This document shows, piece after piece, positions 7,589-18,544 of a stretch of 21,211 nt of DNA; position 1 is the stretch's first letter, and each line of letters begins with the position of its first letter. The notes below the pieces were generated by a model, which saw only the letters and a list, made by a program, of their open reading frames with translations, was not told the origin of the DNA and searched no databases. Position numbers and translations under genes: made by a program. The stretch spans positions 1 to 21,211 of IMG/VR virus record IMGVR_UViG_3300037264_001537. The stretch is one strand, 5' to 3'. The stretch is from a virus.

Positions 7589-8629
7589 TTAGTTGACTCC
7601 TGTAATTCCAGTTAATACTCCTTGACGAAACGGAGCGGTGCAAATCAACTGACCTCCCAAAATCATAAAACCATTAACGGTTCCTTGATTGTAGGCTCTA
7701 ATCATACCAGTCCAAGTGAAAGCATCTCCAGGCGCATATATTTTGTCAACATAAACATTCCCTTCAATATCTTTCGCTTTCGGGGTAACTCTTTCACCCT
7801 CCCACCACTTAAGACCATACCATTCAAGGAATTTAGTATTAAGCATATAGAAGTAGCCAGTTGTGATTTTCTTATCTCTTGCGATAAGCATTCCATCCCA
7901 ATACTGTTCATCGTAACCAGATGTTGAAGCCTTCAAAGCCGCTCCAGCTCCCTTGAAATCAGAAGTATTTCTCTGATAAGGAGTTTGAAGTTGTTCAAAA
8001 TAACCCCAAGTTGTGTAATCAGTTATGATGAAGTCGGGTTTAACCGGACCATCAGAAATGGCGTTCCAAAGCGTTCTTACTTTAGCCAAAGAAATCGTTC
8101 CGCCAGAAGCGGTAACGGTTGAATTAAGACCAGTATAAGAAGCTCTTGTTAATCCGCCATAAGTGGAAGCGGTTGTCCCATCATCGATTGTGTTTGCGAG
8201 ACCATTCGGGGCTTTACTCCCAAATGAAGTCCCATCCCCTTGTAAGAGCGTTCCGATGTCGTCTGCGGCATCTTGCGCTCTTGATTCCATGACAACCTTC
8301 ATAAGTTTGAGGGCTTGCATGGGCGTTTCGTTAATAGACAAATCCGAACCAGCTAAAGCGACATTGGTCGCTACGAAAGTTGGATAGAAAGTCATATTAA
8401 CAGAAACTGGTTGCTGCGTAATCGGCAAAAGGTCAAAACCATTAAAAGCGACAGAGGCAACACCTTTCTGATATTTAATCGGAAAGAGCATTTGCGAACC
8501 ATCCCATTTCTTTGTTTTTGACATCAGTTTGCCGAAGAAATAGTTATCACGCAATATCTGGTCAACCCAAAAAGGCGCCAAATACTGATTTGTAGTCGTG
8601 GTAATATTTACTCCAGGTACACTTGCCAT
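7589..8629 (-). CDS. Major capsid protein (HK97-like fold)
   Basis: A 346-residue protein that forms the icosahedral head shell. Length, position directly after the scaffold gene and sequence pattern fit phage major capsid proteins. Near the N-terminus are the W-V-D-Q-I-L-R-D-N-Y-F-F-G-K-L segment and the G-S-Q-M-L-F-P-I-K-Y strand. The central spine-helix region (P-M-Q-A-L-K-L-M-K-V-V-M-E-S-R-A-Q-D-A) leads to G-T-L-L-Q-G-D-G-T, then G-L-A-N-T-I-D-D-G. The segment P-D-F-I-I-T-D-Y-T-T-W-G-Y-F at about residue 200 is typical of this class. No protease gene is seen nearby, so the scaffold may leave without cleavage or the protease may be elsewhere. The start is ATG at 8629 with an A-rich, Shine-Dalgarno-free leader. 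Confidence 0.88.
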   Translation of the reverse strand: MASVPGVNITTTTNQYLAPFWVDQILRDNYFFGKLMSKTKKWDGSQMLFPIKYQKGVASVAFNGFDLLPITQQPVSVNMTFYPTFVATNVALAGSDLSINETPMQALKLMKVVMESRAQDAADDIGTLLQGDGTSFGSKAPNGLANTIDDGTTASTYGGLTRASYTGLNSTVTASGGTISLAKVRTLWNAISDGPVKPDFIITDYTTWGYFEQLQTPYQRNTSDFKGAGAALKASTSGYDEQYWDGMLIARDKKITTGYFYMLNTKFLEWYGLKWWEGERVTPKAKDIEGNVYVDKIYAPGDAFTWTGMIRAYNQGTVNGFMILGGQLICTAPFRQGVLTGITGVN

Positions 8630-8662
8630 ATATTTGTAAATTTATTTTAATTATTTTCGACT
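8630..8662 (-). promoter_or_regulatory. A-rich translation leader of major capsid gene
   Basis: On the minus strand this leader overlaps the scaffold stop codon (TAGTCGAAAATAATTAAAAT) and continues A/T-rich to the ATG at 8629. It nearly matches the leader of the decoration gene, allowing two short gaps. With no Shine-Dalgarno present, the shared AGTCGAA plus TAATTAAAA tract is the best candidate for the translation start signal of the two most abundant head proteins. Confidence 0.45.
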
Positions 8663-9404
8663 ATATTATTCCGTGTTCTTTTAAGAACCGTTCTGTAGAA
8701 TCATTTTGAAGATTACTTTCTTTTGAATTACCCCCTCTAAACATTGAACGCCCAGCAAGTTCTTTCGCCCTGCTATTGGACTTTTCCATATTTGATTTAA
8801 AAATCTCATATACTGTTTCGGGGTCGGCATATTCAATTATATTTCCACCAGCATCTTTCGGAGAAAGCTTTTCCAAAAGAGTAAGAAATCCCTTTCGTAC
8901 TGTTTGATTTGAGAAATCCGCATTATGCGAATCTTCCAAATTATCCATCATATCCTCAAGACTTTCTTCTTCTTGTTTAACCGCTTGAGTTTCATTGTTG
9001 CGTTCTTGCTCAAAACTTTCCTTTGATTCTTTAAGGGCTTCTTCTTTGGCGGCTTTGTGGACGCCTTGGAGAGCTTTCTTAAGAAGTTCAGTAGCTTCTT
9101 GAGCTTCAGGAGTAGCAGTCCCATAAATCTTTTCAACAAGCTTAAGGTAATCCGCTTCTTCTGTTGTTCCGCGCAATTTTTGAGCTTCTTGTATGCCTTG
9201 TAATCGGGCAGTAGCAGTTAATGCTTCTTCTCTTAATTGCTGATTTTTTTCCAATAATCGTCTTTCTCGGCGATTTTTGGCTTTCATTTCATCGTCTTCG
9301 GAGGTTTCCTCTTCTGTTGATGAAATTTCTTCGGTTAATGGCTTATTCAGCACATCGTCCTCAGTAGGAACTAAATCTTCTAAAAATTTTTCTTGTTCGT
9401 TCAT
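8661..9404 (-). CDS. Putative capsid scaffolding protein
   Basis: A 247-residue, very acidic, mostly helical protein immediately upstream of the major capsid gene, the usual place and character of a scaffold. Residues 1-40 are strongly acidic (E-E-T-S-E-D-D-E). Residues 43-150 are alternating-charge helix, and the C-terminal ~30 residues (R-S-M-F-R-G-G-N-S-K, then F-L-K-E-H-G-I-I) would be the capsid-binding part in this class. I chose the ATG at 9404. A TTG at 9422 is in frame and would add six residues, but it falls inside the leader motif shared with the gene at 5936-6445, where the motif lies upstream of the ATG. The stop codon TAG overlaps the capsid leader. Scaffold function is inferred from context. 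Confidence 0.7.
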   Translation of the reverse strand: MNEQEKFLEDLVPTEDDVLNKPLTEEISSTEEETSEDDEMKAKNRRERRLLEKNQQLREEALTATARLQGIQEAQKLRGTTEEADYLKLVEKIYGTATPEAQEATELLKKALQGVHKAAKEEALKESKESFEQERNNETQAVKQEEESLEDMMDNLEDSHNADFSNQTVRKGFLTLLEKLSPKDAGGNIIEYADPETVYEIFKSNMEKSNSRAKELAGRSMFRGGNSKESNLQNDSTERFLKEHGII

Positions 9405-9416
9405 ATTTTTATGCTT

Positions 9417-9451
9417 TTTCAAGCTTTTACGCCTTTCGCAAGGTCTTTATT
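9417..9451 (-). promoter_or_regulatory. Leader motif copy A with GCGA tetraloop hairpin
   Basis: On the minus strand the core is CCTT-GCGA-AAGG (9432-9443) followed by CGTAAAAG. It matches 29 of 35 bases of the motif at 6450-6484, and both loops are GNRA. An 11-base direct repeat AAAAGCTTGAA flanks the hairpin (9450-9460 and 9418-9428), which could mark a dimeric binding site. The motif ends 12 bases before the scaffold ATG. Confidence 0.6.
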
Positions 9452-10333: not shown

Positions 10334-10480
10334 TTATTTATACTTTTTCAATTCTTCGGCTTGCTCTTTATATTCTTTTTTAGCTCCTTTGCCGGTTTTT
10401 AAAACTTTAAGCAAGTGTTTATGCTCTTTGACAAAATCGGGCTTCTTCATTTTTATTATTGCTTGGTTTTTAGCGTTCAT
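10334..10480 (-). CDS. 48-residue basic microprotein coupled to portal gene
   Basis: An ATG-to-TAA frame of 48 residues whose ATG overlaps the portal stop codon in an ATGA arrangement, a strong sign of translational coupling. It is Lys-rich and helical (K-E-H-K-H-L-L-K-V-L-K-T-G-K-G-A-K-K-E). Similar short proteins with an 'H-K-H-L-x-x-V-L-K' core seem to occur in other phages, to my recollection, without known function. Confidence 0.55.
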   Translation of the reverse strand: MNAKNQAIIKMKKPDFVKEHKHLLKVLKTGKGAKKEYKEQAEELKKYK

Positions 10481-12411
10481 ACTTGAGATAATTTAGCGCT
10501 CGCTGACTCGGTGCTTTGTTGAAGTTTCTGTTTATGCGATTCATCACTTTGCTGAAGCTTTTGCTGATGTTCGGCTTGTTTCATACCTAACCCTTGCTGG
10601 AATTGCTGTGTTTCTTGCCCTTGTTGTCGAGCTTGAACTTGAGCTTGTTGAGCTTGTTGTTCCGCCATCATTTGTTGTAATTGGGCAAATAGTTCAGAGA
10701 AATTAAGCTTTAGATATGCTTGCGGGTCAACTTTCCACAATACTCCATCAGCCGCCGCTTCATCGGGATTTGGAAAATCTAAAGTTTCAAGAAGAATCTT
10801 CGGGCCGATAGCCCCTCTCGTATATAAATCAATGGCTTGATTCATCTTACTTACTTCGTCTTTCGGCTTCATTGAGTTAGGCGAAACACCCACAACAATT
10901 TGCCTATTTATATCCCTTGAAGATAACTCAACATATTGAACCGCCTTACCAACTCCCATAACAGCGGCAAAATGTTGTTCGTCATAAAACACTACATAAA
11001 GTTGAACTAACCAATTAAATACTGAACGGGCAACTGATTGTTCTATAACATCACTAATTCCGCCTCCAATTCTTGAAGTATCCCTGCCCTGATTCATTAT
11101 CATTCCCCTTGCCGTTTCGTCTTTTTTGGGTTGTTGTGAAGATATGCCTTGAACCCCCCACGATGAACGCAAGTGATTTTCGCTATTCTCAAGGTCTTTA
11201 AAAGCTGAGTCCGGCATATTAGGAGCGGCAATACGAACAATAGCTTCGCTTACAGGCCCACCTGGCGGAATTAAAACCTTACCTATACCCCTTGTAAGGG
11301 CATTAGAGGCCTGCTTAGCCGTCTCTTGGTTAAAATTGTTTTCCGAAAAAGCTAAACCATTATTACTTTGGCTTACATTATCATCAATCTGTTCTACCCG
11401 CTTACTTATCTTAGCTTGATTAGGAATGTTCTGCTCTATAAGACCAGTAATATCGTGCGGGCGTTCTTGTAAAGAGAAAACAGATAGAAAAGTATAAGGC
11501 TTTTGTGGTGAGGCGAAATGATTAAAAGGCTTCGTTTGAATAGGCGCTCCCAATTCATCAACATCTTCCGTGTCCTTGGCATAATTAAAGTATTCATTTT
11601 TATGCTTCTCTAAAACTATTTTCTTGTAAGTCTTGAAGCAATAATCATCAGTCCACCATTCAGTATAGATTACTTCAGTGCCTAACTTAACTCCATCGGC
11701 ATCTGTAACCGATTTCTCGATATAATCCTTTTTATCAGGGAATAAATCAATAAGCTCTTTAGCGGTTAAAGACATTCTTTCTCCAAGCCAAGACGAAAAG
11801 TTTCCATAAACATCAACAAACCCATCAGGGTCAAATAAAAAATCTTGTATCTTTCTATTCTCAACCGAAACATCTTTAATCTTTTCATTCCAACCATATT
11901 TTAATACTGCGAGTTGATAAATACTCCATCTTCGAGCCATTACTTCCAATTTACGCTTCAAAAGCAACTGGTCAGCGTGAAATTGAAGCATAGTTCTTAC
12001 TGCTTCAGCTATAGCATTTCCTTCGGGAGTATTGTCCGAATAAACTAAAGGGTCGGGATTACGAGCCAATGCCGCAGGCAAAAATGTTTCTTCCGACTCA
12101 AATTGTAAATTAGCGGCTCCTGGCTTGTCTTCATCCAATAAAGAACCATCTTTTTGTCTACCCAAATAAGACCTTAAATTTCTTTGAAAAGTCTTTGTTA
12201 TTCTACTTTCATAAGGAGCATAAATTTTTTCCCAATCATCTCTCAATTCTAAAAGCTCATCATCTGACATTGGCAAATCAAGCACATCAAGCAATTCGCC
12301 TGTTGCCCCTTCCATTTCATCGTTAGTGCCGGAAGCCACCTTGTTTATCCCGCTTTCAACAAGGTCAGTCACACCCTTTATATTAGCCGAAAAAGTATCT
12401 TCGTTTTTCAT
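10477..12411 (-). CDS. Portal protein
   Basis: A 644-residue protein forming the dodecameric ring through which DNA enters and leaves the head. The length, place after the large terminase and sequence match large portals of short-tailed phages. Supporting segments are the N-terminal helical wing (W-E-K-I-Y-A-P-Y-E-S-R-I-T-K-T-F-Q), the F-E-S-E-E-T-F-L-P-A-A-L-A-R-N-P-D-P-L wing entry near residue 105, and the stem/helix part with G-I-G-G-G-type turns. Residues 575-644 form a Gln-rich helical tail, including a tandem 11-residue repeat (H-Q-Q-K-L-Q-Q-S-D-E-S then H-K-Q-K-L-Q-Q-S-T-E-S). It recalls the C-terminal barrel of the P22 portal, which is known to signal head fullness; that parallel is inference. 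Its stop overlaps the next start. Confidence 0.82.
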   Translation of the reverse strand: MKNEDTFSANIKGVTDLVESGINKVASGTNDEMEGATGELLDVLDLPMSDDELLELRDDWEKIYAPYESRITKTFQRNLRSYLGRQKDGSLLDEDKPGAANLQFESEETFLPAALARNPDPLVYSDNTPEGNAIAEAVRTMLQFHADQLLLKRKLEVMARRWSIYQLAVLKYGWNEKIKDVSVENRKIQDFLFDPDGFVDVYGNFSSWLGERMSLTAKELIDLFPDKKDYIEKSVTDADGVKLGTEVIYTEWWTDDYCFKTYKKIVLEKHKNEYFNYAKDTEDVDELGAPIQTKPFNHFASPQKPYTFLSVFSLQERPHDITGLIEQNIPNQAKISKRVEQIDDNVSQSNNGLAFSENNFNQETAKQASNALTRGIGKVLIPPGGPVSEAIVRIAAPNMPDSAFKDLENSENHLRSSWGVQGISSQQPKKDETARGMIMNQGRDTSRIGGGISDVIEQSVARSVFNWLVQLYVVFYDEQHFAAVMGVGKAVQYVELSSRDINRQIVVGVSPNSMKPKDEVSKMNQAIDLYTRGAIGPKILLETLDFPNPDEAAADGVLWKVDPQAYLKLNFSELFAQLQQMMAEQQAQQAQVQARQQGQETQQFQQGLGMKQAEHQQKLQQSDESHKQKLQQSTESASAKLSQV

Positions 12412-12421
12412 TTACTATATT

Positions 12422-12670
12422 TTATAACAATTGACTCTTATTATCCAAATTTTCGTGTATTATTTTATAATAAGGACAACATTCATGATATTTATCATTT
12501 TCTTCAGTTAAAAAAATACCACATTCAGGGCATTGATTATTAGCCAACCGCTTAAGCTTCATCTTATTATTCCCTATATTAGTTCTCCACCTCCTCATCC
12601 AATTCTTGCGATACTCTTTACATTTATCGCATTTACATTTGCCAGCCAATTTTGAATTATGCTCAATCAT
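12422..12670 (-). CDS. Small zinc-binding protein between terminase and portal
   Basis: An 82-residue basic protein with two metal-ligand groups: C12, C14 and C17, then C47-P-E-C50 with H62, C64 and C65. The middle (Y-R-K-N-W-M-R-R-W-R-T) is a basic helix. The arrangement suggests a zinc ribbon or knuckle that binds nucleic acid. HNH endonucleases are common beside terminases, and the C-x-x-C halves are reminiscent of them, but I see no HNH catalytic histidine motif. Its ATG overlaps the large-terminase stop in an ATGA arrangement, so the two are coupled. Function unknown. Confidence 0.6.
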   Translation of the reverse strand: MIEHNSKLAGKCKCDKCKEYRKNWMRRWRTNIGNNKMKLKRLANNQCPECGIFLTEENDKYHECCPYYKIIHENLDNKSQLL

Positions 12671-14301
12671 AAATTAACAGGTTCGGACAAAATTATATTT
12701 TCATCAACCAGTCGCCCCTTTGGTATGCTGTCTAACCAATTATCACCCCCAACTATTTTAGCTTTCTCTCCACTATATTTCTGAAGTCCCACTATCGCAT
12801 AAAGCAAGGCATGGCAATAATGGTCTGCTCCATTCCTTTTCCATACATAATCAGCTCCGTATAAGCTTCTATCGTCTTTGTCGGGCATATCCTTAACAAT
12901 AATTCTTTCCCGATATATATTTCCAAAATGCGAGGCGAAGTCAGACCATTCTTCTGCCGTGCCATTTAATCTTATTCTGCCCATATCTCTTAATTGCTCA
13001 ACCATAAGCGTCATCATCCTATTCCTATCAACTTGAACCTTGCCGAACTCTTCGTCTTTGCCCCATTGGACTAACTCTAAACTCTTCCTATCCTTTCTAT
13101 AAAAACAAAGAAAAACTCTTCCGGGAAATTCAGACTGAAGCTTGCGAACGCCTATTAAATCTCCGCCTTGGTCAAATACAGCTACAGAATTAACAAACCT
13201 CTTTAAATGACTTCTAATAGCGTCATAAGGGTCTTTTGAAGCTGTTATCTCAGTTTCTTGGTCGTAATAAAATACCCCCTGCGAGTTCATTAAAACATAA
13301 TGTATTCCATGTCCAGTATCAGCTCCTATTATAGTTCTACCCTCTTGCTCATTAACCTTATCTACGCAATTTCTTAAAACAACAGACGATTCAATCCTGT
13401 CCTCACTTCCAATATATGGCAAGCCTAAAACATAGTTGTAAAAGTATTGCTTGTCTTTGAGCGGGTCTTTAAATGACTTTATAATATCTTTAGCCGACTT
13501 GTTATAAAGCATTAACTGCGAGACGTGATAACCCGAAAATTCTCCCTCTGCAGTTGGCTTCCAATATCCGCTTATCCTATCTTCCGTCTTCAACTCTCCC
13601 TTACACTTGGAGCAGATATAAATTCCATTCTCCATATCCACATTGTCGGGCCAAGTCATCGTCTGCTCGTGCCTACAATGCGGGCAAGTTATAAACCATT
13701 CTTTTTTATCGCTTTGTTGCCAATAAATATCTACTCCATGTCCGCATAAGCTTGGATGTGAGAAGTACCATCTCCAACCGCCATCTTCTTGCGCTTGAAG
13801 CCTATTCTCATACTGCGTGATAATATCAGGATTTGAGGCATCTACCTCATCGTGTATGTTTAATCCCGAAGGAACCATCATCGCTTGTTTAGCCGTGAAA
13901 GTTCCACGATAAAATATCATTGCCTCGCCTACGGTCTTTTGTTCTATAGTATCGTGTTCTTTTACCCAACTCATTAAAATTGGATTTTGAGCTATAATAC
14001 GATTTATCGCCCCGCCAACCATATCTTGAACATCTGATTGAGCCGGTAATGTATAAATTATCTGCCTTTTAAACTTCTTTGCGACATAAAAAGATTTAAG
14101 AGTTTGGCATACAGTCGCTCCGATTTGCGGAGGCTTTAACCAAACTTGTAAAGGAGAAAGGTCATTATAAATATCAAATAAAAATCGCCTATTCTTAAAT
14201 TCAATGAGCGAACCTATTTCATTCTTTATTTGGTGCTTTATTGTCCAAAGTGCTGGCGATCCCTCCATCGCTTGGGACACTTGTTCCTCTGTATATTCCA
14301 T
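12667..14301 (-). CDS. terL: Terminase large subunit, GpA-type
   Basis: This 544-residue packaging motor cuts concatemeric DNA and pumps it into the prohead. The ATPase part shows a deviant Walker A (K56-P-P-Q-I-G-A-T) with the lysine at the front, as in lambda gpA, and a Walker B at I-H-D151-E152. C206/C209 and C230/C233 form the zinc pair typical of the GpA family. The nuclease part carries likely metal-binding acids at G-A-D328-T-G, V-F-D377-Q-G-G and G-A-D493-H-Y-C-H. All of this is visible in the sequence; the family roles are established for lambda and relatives. The start overlaps the small-subunit gene by 83 bases. A second Met at residue 12 would shorten the overlap but not remove it. 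Confidence 0.92.
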   Translation of the reverse strand: MEYTEEQVSQAMEGSPALWTIKHQIKNEIGSLIEFKNRRFLFDIYNDLSPLQVWLKPPQIGATVCQTLKSFYVAKKFKRQIIYTLPAQSDVQDMVGGAINRIIAQNPILMSWVKEHDTIEQKTVGEAMIFYRGTFTAKQAMMVPSGLNIHDEVDASNPDIITQYENRLQAQEDGGWRWYFSHPSLCGHGVDIYWQQSDKKEWFITCPHCRHEQTMTWPDNVDMENGIYICSKCKGELKTEDRISGYWKPTAEGEFSGYHVSQLMLYNKSAKDIIKSFKDPLKDKQYFYNYVLGLPYIGSEDRIESSVVLRNCVDKVNEQEGRTIIGADTGHGIHYVLMNSQGVFYYDQETEITASKDPYDAIRSHLKRFVNSVAVFDQGGDLIGVRKLQSEFPGRVFLCFYRKDRKSLELVQWGKDEEFGKVQVDRNRMMTLMVEQLRDMGRIRLNGTAEEWSDFASHFGNIYRERIIVKDMPDKDDRSLYGADYVWKRNGADHYCHALLYAIVGLQKYSGEKAKIVGGDNWLDSIPKGRLVDENIILSEPVNL

Positions 14302-14695
14302 TTAACTTTTTAGTTAATTCTTTTATTTGGGGCGTAGAATTTAATTCTATATTAACATTTAAACTTTTTTCAGGAGCATATTTGCCTTTTAATTTATAAC
14401 CCATATCTAACCCCTTGCTTATTGCCTGGCTATCCAATTCTTCATACTCCGACTCTAAATCACCTTTTATATAACGCCTTACTTTTTTAGGCACTTCTAA
14501 TAATTCTCTATGTTTTTCTGCTAATAATTTATCAGGCAAATACTTTTCCATTAACTCTAGCCAACCCTTTGACTTAGTTAATTTTGTAGGTGCAATAGCA
14601 GTATTTTTACTATATCCTGCTTTTACCATTACCTCTCCAATTTTTCTACCACTTTCTACTAACTTAAATGCCTTTTTTTGTTTTAGTGTCGCCAT
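14219..14695 (-). CDS. terS: Terminase small subunit
   Basis: A 158-residue protein that recognises the packaging site and assembles as a ring beside the large subunit. The N-terminal 40 residues form a helix-turn-helix with the usual pattern (K-Q-K-K-A-F-K-L-V-E-S-G, then V-M-V-K-A-G-Y-S-K-N-T-A). A helical oligomerisation part (Y-L-P-D-K-L-L-A-E-K-H-R-E-L-L-E) follows, and a flexible Pro/Ser/Asn-rich tail ends the protein. It starts immediately after the 327-residue gene with no spare bases and overlaps terL by 83 bases. Pattern and place agree; no alignment was run. Confidence 0.85.
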   Translation of the reverse strand: MATLKQKKAFKLVESGRKIGEVMVKAGYSKNTAIAPTKLTKSKGWLELMEKYLPDKLLAEKHRELLEVPKKVRRYIKGDLESEYEELDSQAISKGLDMGYKLKGKYAPEKSLNVNIELNSTPQIKELTKKLNGIYRGTSVPSDGGIASTLDNKAPNKE

Positions 14696-15679
14696 TTATC
14701 TTTTATTTATTACTTTTATTCGAGGCGGGAGATTACCATCAGGAAACATAGCATTATAAATCGCTATTCTTTCCGCTATATTTAATCCCTTTGTATCATA
14801 ATCGCCGTATAGTAAACTATAAAATATATCCGCTTCATCTAATTTGACATTATCCCAATTTATAGCATTTATAGCTTCTTTAATATCTTTTTTGAATTTT
14901 GGAATCCACCAAATTACTTTTAATACATTTGCTCCCCTTTTAAAAGAATCTATCGGTTTTGCTTCTTTATCTGGAGTTCTATCCGCGTGAATTTTTAACA
15001 ATCTTTCCATCTCTTTGGGGAAATTCCTTAACAACTCTTCCTTATTCGCTTCTGCCATTATATCTTGAGCTGGAATACGATAAGCATTATCAAATTCAAA
15101 CATTGCTCCAAAATTTTCTGCTGTTTTTTCCGCCACATCTTCATTTACCCATAAATTAACTAAAAATGCTTTTACTCCTTTTTGAATTTCCTTTACAAAC
15201 TTGCAGTAACATCCATCGAGATAATAGGGTCGCATAGTTAAATCTGAAATCTCATTAAAATAACTACATATCCGATTTATCCTTCCCTTTTTATGTATTG
15301 TTGTTAAAAATCTTATCGCATCTATAAATAATCTCTTTACGGGGCAAACTGCATAAATAGCTTCTACCGGCGCATATGTCTTGCTTGGAAAAGGGCAACC
15401 ATACCAATAAACAAAATTCCCTTCTCCTTTTATACTTTCAAACCTTTCGGGGATAAAACCTACTTGTCCGCCCGAACCATCGTCTCTTATTTCTCCCCAT
15501 TGTTCTTGTGATGGGTTAGCCCTATTAAACCTATATCTGAACACACTATCTTCTAATGGTGGCGGTATTTTATAACCTGCCTGTTCTAACCCTTGAAATC
15601 CATTATTTTGTATTGGTTCTTGTTTTAAAACTATTTTATGTTTGCAATTCGGGCAAAATAATAAATTTTCATTTTCCAT
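14696..15679 (-). CDS. Unknown phage protein with N-terminal zinc ribbon, upstream of terminase
   Basis: A 327-residue protein. The first 20 residues hold C9-P-N-C12-K-H-K, half of a zinc ribbon; no clear partner pair follows nearby. The central part has G-N-F-V-Y-W-Y-G-C-P-F and Y-A-P-V-E-A-I-Y-A-V. A helical domain contains M-F-E-F-D-N-A-Y-R-I-P-A-Q-D-I and D-E-A-D-I-F-Y-S-L-L-Y-G-D-Y-D. I think I have seen this F-E-Y/F-D-N-A-Y-R segment in other phage packaging modules without an assigned function, but cannot verify that. It lies between the chaperonin genes and terS, overlaps the previous gene by 11 bases, and is probably a conserved partner of packaging or head assembly. Confidence 0.65.
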   Translation of the reverse strand: MENENLLFCPNCKHKIVLKQEPIQNNGFQGLEQAGYKIPPPLEDSVFRYRFNRANPSQEQWGEIRDDGSGGQVGFIPERFESIKGEGNFVYWYGCPFPSKTYAPVEAIYAVCPVKRLFIDAIRFLTTIHKKGRINRICSYFNEISDLTMRPYYLDGCYCKFVKEIQKGVKAFLVNLWVNEDVAEKTAENFGAMFEFDNAYRIPAQDIMAEANKEELLRNFPKEMERLLKIHADRTPDKEAKPIDSFKRGANVLKVIWWIPKFKKDIKEAINAINWDNVKLDEADIFYSLLYGDYDTKGLNIAERIAIYNAMFPDGNLPPRIKVINKR

Positions 15680-15839
15680 CGTTAGTTAGTAATTTAACTA
15701 ATACATCTTCAGGCTTTATTTCCCGTGCCTCTATAACTTTGCCATATTTCTGCATCCAACCTTTATAATTACCATCTTCTTGCTTTTCTATAACTATCAC
15801 ATTTGGGTTAATTTCGGGGTTAAATTCTTTATCTTCCAT
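15669..15839 (-). CDS. 56-residue conserved-looking small protein
   Basis: An ATG-to-TGA frame of 56 residues. The second half (G-W-M-Q-K-Y-G-K-V-I-E-A-R-E-I-K-P-E-D-V-L-V-K-L-L-T-N-D-G in broken form) follows a pattern I associate with small phage proteins of the 'R-x-x-x-P-E-D-V-L-x-x-L-L-T-H/N-D-G' type. It overlaps both neighbours by 11 bases, which strongly supports it as a real gene in the operon. No function is known to me. Confidence 0.6.
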   Translation of the reverse strand: MEDKEFNPEINPNVIVIEKQEDGNYKGWMQKYGKVIEAREIKPEDVLVKLLTNDGK

Positions 15840-15996
15840 TTTTATTAAAATCTACAGCTTTTTGAATTATTTTTTGGCAGTTTCGACACATTAGCTTTTG
15901 GCTTAAAGCCACCCCGCCAATAGGCATAACTATTCCTCGTCTTTTAATTATAAACTTGCGTTTTTTACAAGTTTCACACAATGAAAATATCTTCAT
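15829..15996 (-). CDS. 55-residue zinc-ribbon microprotein
   Basis: An ATG-to-TAA frame of 55 residues with C7-x-x-C10 and C37-x-x-C40 separated by a basic, hydrophobic stretch: a two-CxxC zinc ribbon. The ATG overlaps the groEL stop codon as ATGA, and the stop overlaps the next start by 11 bases, so it is clearly part of the operon. It may bind nucleic acid or a protein partner; function unknown. Confidence 0.6.
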   Translation of the reverse strand: MKIFSLCETCKKRKFIIKRRGIVMPIGGVALSQKLMCRNCQKIIQKAVDFNKNGR

Positions 15997-17531
15997 ATTT
16001 GATTTTGTGGCATTAAATGACTTTCTTCTTTTGATAAAAGCACCACATTGCCAATAGTTAGAATTGAAGCCGCTACTCCAATAGCATTTTTAACGGCATT
16101 TATTTCCACATCAACAGGATTTACAATACCTTTTTTCATTAAATCCTCAACCTTGCCCGTTCTGCTATTAAAACACTTTTTGCCCCCTACTTTCAATTTA
16201 TTGGGTTCTTTGCCAAAATTTTTAACTATTCTATTAAAGGGTTCTTTTAATACTTCAGCCATTATTTTACCACCAATTTCATTTAAAAGCAAATTTTTAG
16301 TAGAATTTATCAAAGCAATACCACCACCAACAACAATTCCATTTTCTAAAGCACAACTACTAGCATTAATAGCATCTTCAACCTTAAGTCGCCTATAATA
16401 TAATGCTTGGTCTGAATAAGCGCCCACAAAATAGCGAGCAGTTTTAGTATTAAGCCGTCCAGCTCTTTGTAAGGCACTATCGCTCCCATCTTTTCTTAAT
16501 GCTTCTATATGTTCCGATAAATCATTAATCCCATCAATATAAGTGTCTTCTTTTGTAATTGTAATATGGCTAAACTGCCCCAAATCTTCATCCGTAACAT
16601 TTGATAAACTCTTACCAATTCCATCAATTATTTTTCCCCCGCTTGCTTGAGCCAAATCTTCCCACCATTCATCCCGCCATAATACCGGCATTTTAACAAC
16701 CATTGTCTTAAATCCCCTTTCTATTCTTGTCTTAACCAAACTTGCCACCACTGGCATTTCTATTTCTTCACAAAAAATAACTAATTCCTTTATATTTTTA
16801 GTAAATAATGACGACAAAATCGTATTAAGGTCATCATTAGACATTATTTTTTGCTTTGCAAGCAAGATTTTAGGTTCTTTCCAAATTATTCCATTCATAA
16901 ACCTACCCAAAGCATCAACATCGCACATATAAGGACTTACATAAGTAGCTCCGTGAATTGTTATACCTGTGCCTATTGTGTAGCCATCCTCGGCCGTTTT
17001 TGAAATATCCCAACTTATAACGCCGTCTTTACCTATTTTTTTATAAATTTCCTGTATCATATTGCCTATTCCTTCATCTTCTGAAGAAATAGTAGCAACT
17101 TTTGAAACTTCATTAAGAGTAATTTTTTTTGATTGTTCTTTAAGAGATTTTTCTAATAAGGGAATACATTTTTCAAGAGAATTTTTTATATCCATCGGCG
17201 AAAATTTATCAAGATATTTTCTACCCTCTTCTAAAATTGCCGAAGTTAAGACACAAGTAGTTGAAGAGCCATCTCCGCTTGCCTTATTAGCACGAGAAAC
17301 CGCCTCTCTTATTATTTTTCTTCCTATTTCTTCTAAAGGGTCAGCAAATTTAATAGCATCGACAATGGTAGCTCCATCATTTGTTGTGGATATGCCAGGA
17401 TTTTCAAAGGTTTCTATTAAGCTATTTTTGCCGAAAGTTCCCATAGTCGCCCCAACCGCATCTGCCACTTTTTTTACTCCCCGCATTACCCCATCTATTG
17501 CTTCTTTTCCAAAAATTAAATTATCTATCAT
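15993..17531 (-). CDS. groEL: Phage-encoded GroEL-type chaperonin
   Basis: A 512-residue group I chaperonin that would form the ATP-driven folding chamber in the cytoplasm. The equatorial ATP-site signatures are present: T29-M-G-T-F-G34-K-N (GroEL: T-L-G-P-K-G-R-N), T-N-D52-G, and G86-D87-G-S-S-T-T. The catalytic-aspartate region K-V-E-D386-A-I-N-A-S and G-G-G at 402-404 are also kept. The apical domain (about 190-335) is recognisable by Y-V-S-P-Y and the A-S-G-G-K-I-I-D motif. Differences from bacterial GroEL include loss of the P33-K34 pair, a shortened intermediate-domain segment after the apical domain, a Trp-rich run (L-W-R-D-E-W-W near 284-290) where GroEL has G-F-G-D-R-R, and no G-G-M tail. 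It is coupled by ATGA overlaps on both sides. It probably folds capsid or other virion proteins. Confidence 0.92.
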   Translation of the reverse strand: MIDNLIFGKEAIDGVMRGVKKVADAVGATMGTFGKNSLIETFENPGISTTNDGATIVDAIKFADPLEEIGRKIIREAVSRANKASGDGSSTTCVLTSAILEEGRKYLDKFSPMDIKNSLEKCIPLLEKSLKEQSKKITLNEVSKVATISSEDEGIGNMIQEIYKKIGKDGVISWDISKTAEDGYTIGTGITIHGATYVSPYMCDVDALGRFMNGIIWKEPKILLAKQKIMSNDDLNTILSSLFTKNIKELVIFCEEIEMPVVASLVKTRIERGFKTMVVKMPVLWRDEWWEDLAQASGGKIIDGIGKSLSNVTDEDLGQFSHITITKEDTYIDGINDLSEHIEALRKDGSDSALQRAGRLNTKTARYFVGAYSDQALYYRRLKVEDAINASSCALENGIVVGGGIALINSTKNLLLNEIGGKIMAEVLKEPFNRIVKNFGKEPNKLKVGGKKCFNSRTGKVEDLMKKGIVNPVDVEINAVKNAIGVAASILTIGNVVLLSKEESHLMPQNQI

Positions 17532-18094
17532 AAATTCATATTTTTATATGGCCCAAATGGTCCGGGAATAGAAACTTCTCCCTTCTCTAAGCTTGGGAAA
17601 AACATAAAACAAGTAGCATTACCAAATCTTGCTTTTAATACCGATTCCGTTAAATTGAATCCATATATTTGACCCTTTTTAAGGACATTACCCTTGTAGT
17701 TCCAAATAGCAGTTCCCTTATCTTGACCTATCATTGTATAAACCTTTCCTTCAGCATCTTCGTCCATTCCCAATAATGTCCAAGCAAAAACAAAAGTATT
17801 TTCATCGACTATGGACGCTGTTATCTGGCAAGACTGGGGAATCTCTTTGGGTGGCTCTATCGGAGAAGATATTATTTCTTGTGGTTTAATTTGTTTATTC
17901 ATATTGTCTATTTTTAATTGAAATAATTTATTTTGAAGTTCTTCGACCTGTTTTAAAAGAAGTTCTATTTGTAATTTAAGAACTTTTGTTGTTAATTCTT
18001 GAATTTGTAAATCAATTTGCGGATTATTTGAGGCGGAACTAATAGTAGGCGATAAAAGTATTAATGCTATCAAGATATAAATTAGTTTTTTCAT
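17528..18094 (-). CDS. Exported coiled-coil protein between groES and groEL
   Basis: A 188-residue protein with a clear N-terminal signal peptide: two Lys, a hydrophobic core (about residues 4-17) and a likely signal-peptidase site after S-S-A near residue 21. There is no lipobox cysteine. A coiled coil follows (about 25-70, L-Q-I-E-L-L-L-K-Q-V-E-E-L-Q), then a Pro-rich linker and a beta-rich C-terminal domain (87-188) with two cysteines, C89 and C162, that could form a disulfide outside the cytoplasm. It overlaps both neighbours by 4 bases. An exported protein in a chaperonin operon is unexpected. Lysis or spanin-like function, or an envelope role during infection, are possible; I recognise no family. 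Confidence 0.75.
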   Translation of the reverse strand: MKKLIYILIALILLSPTISSASNNPQIDLQIQELTTKVLKLQIELLLKQVEELQNKLFQLKIDNMNKQIKPQEIISSPIEPPKEIPQSCQITASIVDENTFVFAWTLLGMDEDAEGKVYTMIGQDKGTAIWNYKGNVLKKGQIYGFNLTESVLKARFGNATCFMFFPSLEKGEVSIPGPFGPYKNMNL

Positions 18095-18306
18095 AAGTAT
18101 TCTTTTTTAAACATTGAATCACTTGGCTTTAAAATTTCTCTTATATGCCACGAAATGTAAATATGATTAGGACAATTTGCTGGGAAAAACTTTGTTATTC
18201 CGCATCTCTCACATCTTTCCAACGAACCACCTTTTATTATCTTTAATTGCTTAAACTTATGAAGCCAACCTCTTTTTTGACAATAGCTATTTTGGTATCT
18301 CTTCAT
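18091..18306 (-). CDS. Small zinc-knuckle protein, downstream of groES
   Basis: I take the start as the ATG at 18306, giving 71 residues with a 20-base overlap of groES. A longer frame is open to 18417, but its first 37 residues would lie wholly within groES. The core is C32-E-R-C35-G-I-T-K-F-F-P-A-N-C45-P-N-H48, a four-ligand zinc site, followed by Y-I-S-W-H-I-R-E-I-L-K. It appears to be a small nucleic-acid or protein-binding knuckle. The stop overlaps the next start by 4 bases. Function unknown. Confidence 0.6.
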   Translation of the reverse strand: MKRYQNSYCQKRGWLHKFKQLKIIKGGSLERCERCGITKFFPANCPNHIYISWHIREILKPSDSMFKKEYL

Positions 18307-18544
18307 TTGTTTCAGTAGCTCTAATATCTTCATATCTAACGAGCCAAAAAAATGTTTTTCCATCTCCTGTTGGATATTTCGCGGCCAAATAACTATCAAA
18401 ATATACCCTACTTCCAATAAATAATCCCGAATCGCCCGAATTTACAACTATACCTATTTCTTCATAAATATCTTTTTCAGAAGCAATGAAAGAATCGCTT
18501 TTTAAAGGTTCTATTAAAATATAATTATTTATCGGTTGTATCAT
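18287..18544 (-). CDS. groES: GroES-like co-chaperonin
   Basis: An 85-residue protein with the layout of GroES: I-Q-P-I-N-N-Y-I-L-I-E-P-L at the N-terminus (GroES: I-R-P-L-H-D-R-V-I-V-K), G-I-V-V-N-S-G-D-S-G-L-F-I-G-S-R-V-Y-F in the barrel, and W-L-V-R-Y-E-D-I-R-A at the end (GroES: L-I-M-S-E-S-D-I-L-A). It would cap the chaperonin ring. Residues 15-28 are in the place of the GroEL-binding mobile loop, but the usual G-G-I-V-L is absent; F-I-A-S is a candidate replacement. With a divergent GroEL three genes on, a co-adapted pair is plausible. T4 gp31 is the known precedent for a phage co-chaperonin of low similarity. It overlaps both neighbours by 20 bases. Confidence 0.78.
   Translation of the reverse strand: MIQPINNYILIEPLKSDSFIASEKDIYEEIGIVVNSGDSGLFIGSRVYFDSYLAAKYPTGDGKTFFWLVRYEDIRATETNEEIPK

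Follow-up and report, generated by a model that had tools for sequence, protein, structure and literature searches.

What does a phage of modest genome size do with both halves of a chaperonin, and are the two genes what they seem? We addressed these questions for the window, the whole 21,211-nucleotide stretch of an uncultivated phage analyzed here (IMG/VR record IMGVR_UViG_3300037264_001537), in which a GroES-like gene (positions 18287..18544) and a GroEL gene (15993..17531) lie on the minus strand. A preliminary description made from the sequence alone had placed both genes there, and family and fold matches bear this out. The larger gene encodes 512 amino acids and lacks the GGM tail. Its product exceeds the Pfam Cpn60_TCP1 cut-off by a wide margin (119.2 bits against 34.3; E = 2.6e-34), is matched over residues 4-504 by the PHROG profile phrog_5725, "chaperonin groEL" (E = 1.6e-89), and over residues 7-496 by chaperonin chains of the PDB. 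At the level of sequence, this confirms a divergent full-length group I chaperonin. The divergence is considerable, with about 31% identity to Escherichia coli GroEL and at most 34% to any sequence in the compared set outside the clade of related phages described below, whose GroELs form their own branch with full support (100/100) in the tree of that set. The score against TIGR02348, the NCBI equivalog for GroEL, is 269.5 bits and falls below the curated cut-off of 582.1, so that by profile score the protein is a member of the chaperonin family outside the bacterial GroEL equivalog.

Conservation within the clade is uneven across the GroEL protein. The equivalents of the catalytic aspartates D52, D87, and D398 are all three retained in every clade GroEL examined, the DGTTT loop reads DGSST in nearly all of them, and the apical Y199 and Y203 equivalents are largely retained. 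The surface that binds GroES in E. coli is partly changed, with N, D, or E in place of L234 and a variable residue at V264, and the inter-ring contact region shows no conservation across the clade. As GroES-binding residues are replaced and the inter-ring region is unconserved, neither the assembly state nor the choice of partner should be assumed.

Assigning the smaller protein, of 85 amino acids, is more challenging. Taken alone it scores 14.3 bits against Pfam Cpn10, under the cut-off of 21.1 (E = 0.043), and a phmmer search of PDB sequences returned no match. Because this match is marginal, we tested its identity through its family, with 20 members aligned. Cpn10 is matched by 12 of the 20 (best E = 1.7e-6), and the GroES of a related phage, L052, passes the cut-off at 27.1 bits. 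The AlphaFold model of the window protein (pLDDT 80) has as its best PDB match the Thermus Cpn10 1wnr (Z 9.8, rmsd 2.1 over 72 residues); it is also near further GroES chains, among them the Mycobacterium tuberculosis Cpn10. Cpn10/GroES or gp31 occupies nearly all of the top 16 places, and models of viral GroES proteins match it as well. The preliminary description would have abandoned its reading for a model without a GroES barrel; the model obtained shows a Cpn10 fold, and prediction thus confirms the protein as a GroES with the Cpn10 beta-barrel. Its roof loop is short, and its mobile loop is shortened. Low pLDDT falls between strands E8-13 and E28-35, in the blocks covering residues 11-30, which is the place of the GroES mobile loop. 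Within this stretch most of the 20 aligned members carry a hydrophobic tripeptide, FIA (as in the window), FLP, or YLP, which would act as the counterpart of the E. coli IVL.

The two genes belong to one operon, as had been proposed from the open reading frames. Two small genes, p108 and p188, separate GroES from GroEL in the window, with overlaps of 20 bases between GroES and p108 and of 4 bases at each of the p108/p188, p188/GroEL, and GroEL/next gene junctions, in agreement with the 4- to 20-base linkage first described, and same-strand frames run on to the terminase, portal, and capsid genes. The gene that follows GroEL encodes a small CxxC protein of 55 amino acids (15829..15996) and is itself followed by a small open reading frame of 56 amino acids (15669..15839), both known from the ORF table. 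Between GroEL and the packaging genes there is then a 327-amino-acid protein with no significant Pfam or PHROG match (14696..15679). A 158-amino-acid gene just 5' of the large terminase gene is, by position and with no significant family match, a probable small terminase (14219..14695). Still on the minus strand, the unit continues into the large terminase subunit, TerL (12667..14301; phrog_675, 2e-79; Pfam GpA_ATPase, 1.9e-16), the portal protein (10477..12411; phrog_156, 1e-15), a probable scaffold protein recognized by its acidic composition and its position upstream of the capsid gene (8661..9422), and the major head protein (7589..8629; phrog_9953, 1.7e-35).

To ask whether this arrangement recurs, we scanned viral contigs. 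Single GroEL or GroES sequences from the window gave no matches in these scans, and it was the TerL scan that revealed the family, with 46 related loci. In nearly all close relatives whose contig extends so far, GroES-p108-GroEL precedes TerL, and the gene order is constant, with p108 as the only gene between the two in most members. Homologues that never co-occur had been named at the outset as evidence against a matched pair. The viral-contig loci are linked throughout: p108 and GroEL are adjacent in 28 of 28 loci seeded with GroES, and GroES is present in all 31 loci seeded with GroEL that have at least 1.2 kb of upstream sequence. Both genes occur in all ten clade records of at least 36 kb, including L011, which initially looked like an exception but carries the pair at another place in its 42-kb record. 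The ends of the G017 record (42.7 kb) overlap by 127 bp, which puts clade genomes at about 43 kb, within an overall range of ~40 to 43 kb. Recurrence in dozens of related contigs excludes a chance arrangement. Two classes of locus are ruled out by the same counts, a lone co-chaperonin of the gp31 type, as GroEL is present in 28/28 GroES loci, and a GroES-independent chaperonin of the EL type, with no GroES in the genome, as GroES is always upstream of GroEL.

Selection on the pair is apparent in the closest pair of relatives, L024 and L031, for which dN/dS is 0.05 for GroEL and 0.02 for GroES. Retention of the ATPase residues together with strong purifying selection indicates that the chaperonin pair is in use. 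The new phage clade thus has a genuine and conserved GroES/GroEL pair that is probably functional. This lineage of about 40 to 43 kb always spends about 2 kb on the pair, and such an outlay, always kept in so small a genome, suggests that the pair is probably essential there.

The small genes between the two differ in their standing. Listed as an open reading frame of 108 amino acids from a TTG, p108 has its conserved start at the ATG at 18306, giving a C/H-rich protein of 71 amino acids (18091..18306, minus strand). In the family alignment residues C9, H16, C32, and C35 are invariant or nearly so and make up a probable zinc site. The gene lies directly after GroES in 28/28 GroES-seeded loci, and its dN/dS in the L024/L031 comparison is 0.10. 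Its model is confident (pLDDT 90.6), and fold searches with it gave no PDB match above Z 2.8 and no BFVD match at E 0.001. A weak relative lies near TerL in L051 (L051:1401-1682), on an 8-kb contig without GroES or GroEL, and p108 therefore need not be a chaperonin subunit. The second small gene, p188 (17528..18094, minus strand), encodes 188 amino acids with a signal-like N terminus and, by eye, a coiled-coil-like stretch, and has no match in Pfam or PHROG. It lies between p108 and GroEL only in the window, and the set contains a single, weak relative of it, which in L003 is located after GroEL; p188 is an accessory local insertion outside the conserved module.

How unusual is such a pair among phages? 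The preliminary description had confined phage GroEL to a few large phages and called a matched pair in one compact phage operon uncommon, which overstates the case. A tblastn search matched 219 phage records, a few of which are bacterial contigs, and pairs are annotated in phages of 60 to 160 kb, with a probable further one in the 39-kb MW202566. Matched GroES/GroEL pairs are annotated in Cellulophaga phage phi38:1, in the Flavobacterium elemo and immuto phages, and in MW202828, and such pairs in phages have been stated in general terms (PMC7185714). As pairs were already known in phi38:1, elemovirus, and immutovirus, the window represents a new clade of known gene cargo. In the mid-size phage phi38:1 (NC_021796, 72.5 kb), Cpn10, gp006, and GroEL run in one direction with one small gene between, as in the clade, but the pair sits beside DNA polymerase genes rather than packaging genes, the intervening gene is not p108 by profile search, and the GroEL is about 30% identical to that of the window. 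The elemo (60 kb) and immuto (160 kb) phages have GroES and GroEL annotated side by side, and the elemo GroES is found by the clade GroES profile; however, the elemo order is GroEL-GroES, and in both Flavobacterium groups p108 was not found and the pair lies outside the head operon. MW202566, a circular phage from a cave spring, has a gene annotated as mhsp60, probably the co-chaperonin, followed by GroEL, with TerL and portal a few genes further on; it differs from the clade in its strong Shine-Dalgarno use (0.70), in a GroEL of 27% identity, and in p108, which was not found.

A more distant relative of the clade is L052, a 39.8-kb complete phage (G026:C51) of a sister TerL lineage, which likewise has GroEL, GroES, and p108 upstream of TerL but in the order GroEL-HNH-like-GroES-p108, and whose GroEL is only 29% identical. 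This GroEL is possibly a separate acquisition from that of the clade. In a first GroEL tree it grouped with Patescibacteria GroELs (98/96), a grouping that was gone from a second tree with four long rows removed, and AU tests did not reject either the group of L052 with Patescibacteria GroELs or its union with the clade (p = 0.26 and 0.49). More distant parallels are the group I-like chaperonins encoded by EL (gp146), AR9, and OBP, which unlike the clade are jumbo phages; EL has been reported without a known GroES (PMC7185714). Viral GroEL-like proteins of soil, seen as transcripts and peptides and distinct from marine ones (PMC8390657), are likened to ours here by description.

We consider it highly probable that the window encodes a complete phage GroES/GroEL chaperonin, likely serving the folding of virion proteins. 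The phage GroEL would form a ring, bind unfolded protein, and hydrolyze ATP, and the phage GroES would cap the ring through its mobile-loop tripeptide, closing the folding chamber. Both would be translated from one late transcript shared with terminase, portal, scaffold, and capsid, so that the machine would be at hand during bulk synthesis of virion proteins, with the major head protein as the most likely client, or otherwise another virion protein. Ring assembly, mutual binding, the shared transcript, and the client are what we infer for the phage pair, and the position in the late operon fits folding of the phage's own virion proteins. That GroEL instead dispenses with GroES, the mode proposed for phages EL and OBP, leaving another role to the 85-residue protein, is very unlikely: the divergent apical and inter-ring residues would agree with it, but every clade member seen has GroES directly upstream, and purifying selection is strongest on GroES. 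About as unlikely is that the phage GroES redirects host GroEL, with only a secondary part left to the phage GroEL. T4 gp31 acts in that manner, being a phage co-chaperonin with the Cpn10 fold that partners host GroEL in a phage without a GroEL of its own; it matches the window GroES model at Z 8.1, and the short roof loop recalls it. Yet our searches met no clade member that has GroES but not GroEL, and selection on GroEL is strong. The compact, divergent pair is available for mechanistic study.

A different explanation concerns the host, namely, that these phages carry a full GroE because Patescibacteria-like hosts of small genome size have lost GroEL and GroES, and phage proteins needing a chaperonin would otherwise go unfolded. 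In the TerL tree the clade groups (100/100) with three TerLs from metagenome-assembled contigs, L052 from G026, L053 from "Ca. Nealsonbacteria" (of the Patescibacteria group), and L051 from an Ignavibacteriae bin of a 0.1-um filter, and next with prophage-type TerLs of Patescibacteria; the cultured phages tried fall outside. Related TerLs were found in 6 of 380 Patescibacteria genomes versus 1 of 395 from the Ignavibacteria phylum. Two of the prophage TerLs, L120 (G557:C1) and L121 (G715:C1), are inside near-complete Patescibacteria chromosomes, on contigs of 0.82 and 1.10 Mb, beside parts of a comM/Mg-chelatase gene, which suggests that prophages of this type integrate at comM. In the family of G026 (G031-G044; genomes of 0.6 to 1.0 Mb), 13 of 15 genomes lack GroEL and 13 of 15 lack GroES, the well-assembled G031 included; G042 has both genes, and G026 has only the phage copies. 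The RpoB of G026 is 56% identical to that of Nealsonbacteria and 51% to that of E. coli, and by sequence its order is likely Patescibacteria. Start signals point the same way. Across clade genes, Shine-Dalgarno motifs are at background, and a TATAAT-like box lies ~10 nt upstream of about 41 of 214 starts versus 15 of 214 at a control position, the window alone being too small a sample for this box (n = 19). Together these signals suggest leaderless transcripts, and they resemble those of sampled Patescibacteria more than those of two genomes of G025's phylum. Within the window itself, a Shine-Dalgarno-like motif precedes 0 of 32 minus-strand gene starts. These data support a Patescibacteria-like bacterium as a candidate host for the window clade.

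As the reason for the pair, however, host loss seems unlikely. L052 is a free complete phage with a 141-bp end overlap, which led us to reject integration as a way to its host, and the link to G026 rests on binning. Within the order of G026, where genomes measure 0.4 to 1.1 Mb, 110 of 148 genomes have GroEL, and five prophage-type Patescibacteria loci of the same TerL group have no chaperonin nearby. GroE pairs also occur in phages of Cellulophaga and Flavobacterium, hosts expected to have a genomic GroEL of their own. Our searches turned up no host for the window clade itself, and a phage secreted protein, tried as a host marker, gave no information (0/197 and 1/198). In the CPR, groEL and groES have been described as co-occurring or co-absent and as retained overall (PMC12641178). 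Our literature search found no paper tying Patescibacteria phages to GroEL. The idea of supplying what the host lacks is the part worth following. If the hosts are chaperonin-free Patescibacteria, the reason that phages carry GroE becomes testable, as host absence rather than host competition, and if the idea holds, a phage would be supplying a near-universal function that its host lacks.

The TerL genes of the family show a further feature. Three of them, of 831 to 851 amino acids (L030:2099-4654, L038:789-3284, and L041:7983-10487), contain an intein-like insert at a shared site, DH[FY]|CF[IV]AGT...V[SA]N|CH. In L030 an HNH endonuclease frame (Pfam HNH_3, 2e-14) overlaps the TerL insert in another reading frame, and the long TerL frames of L045 and L046 have inserts at other sites.
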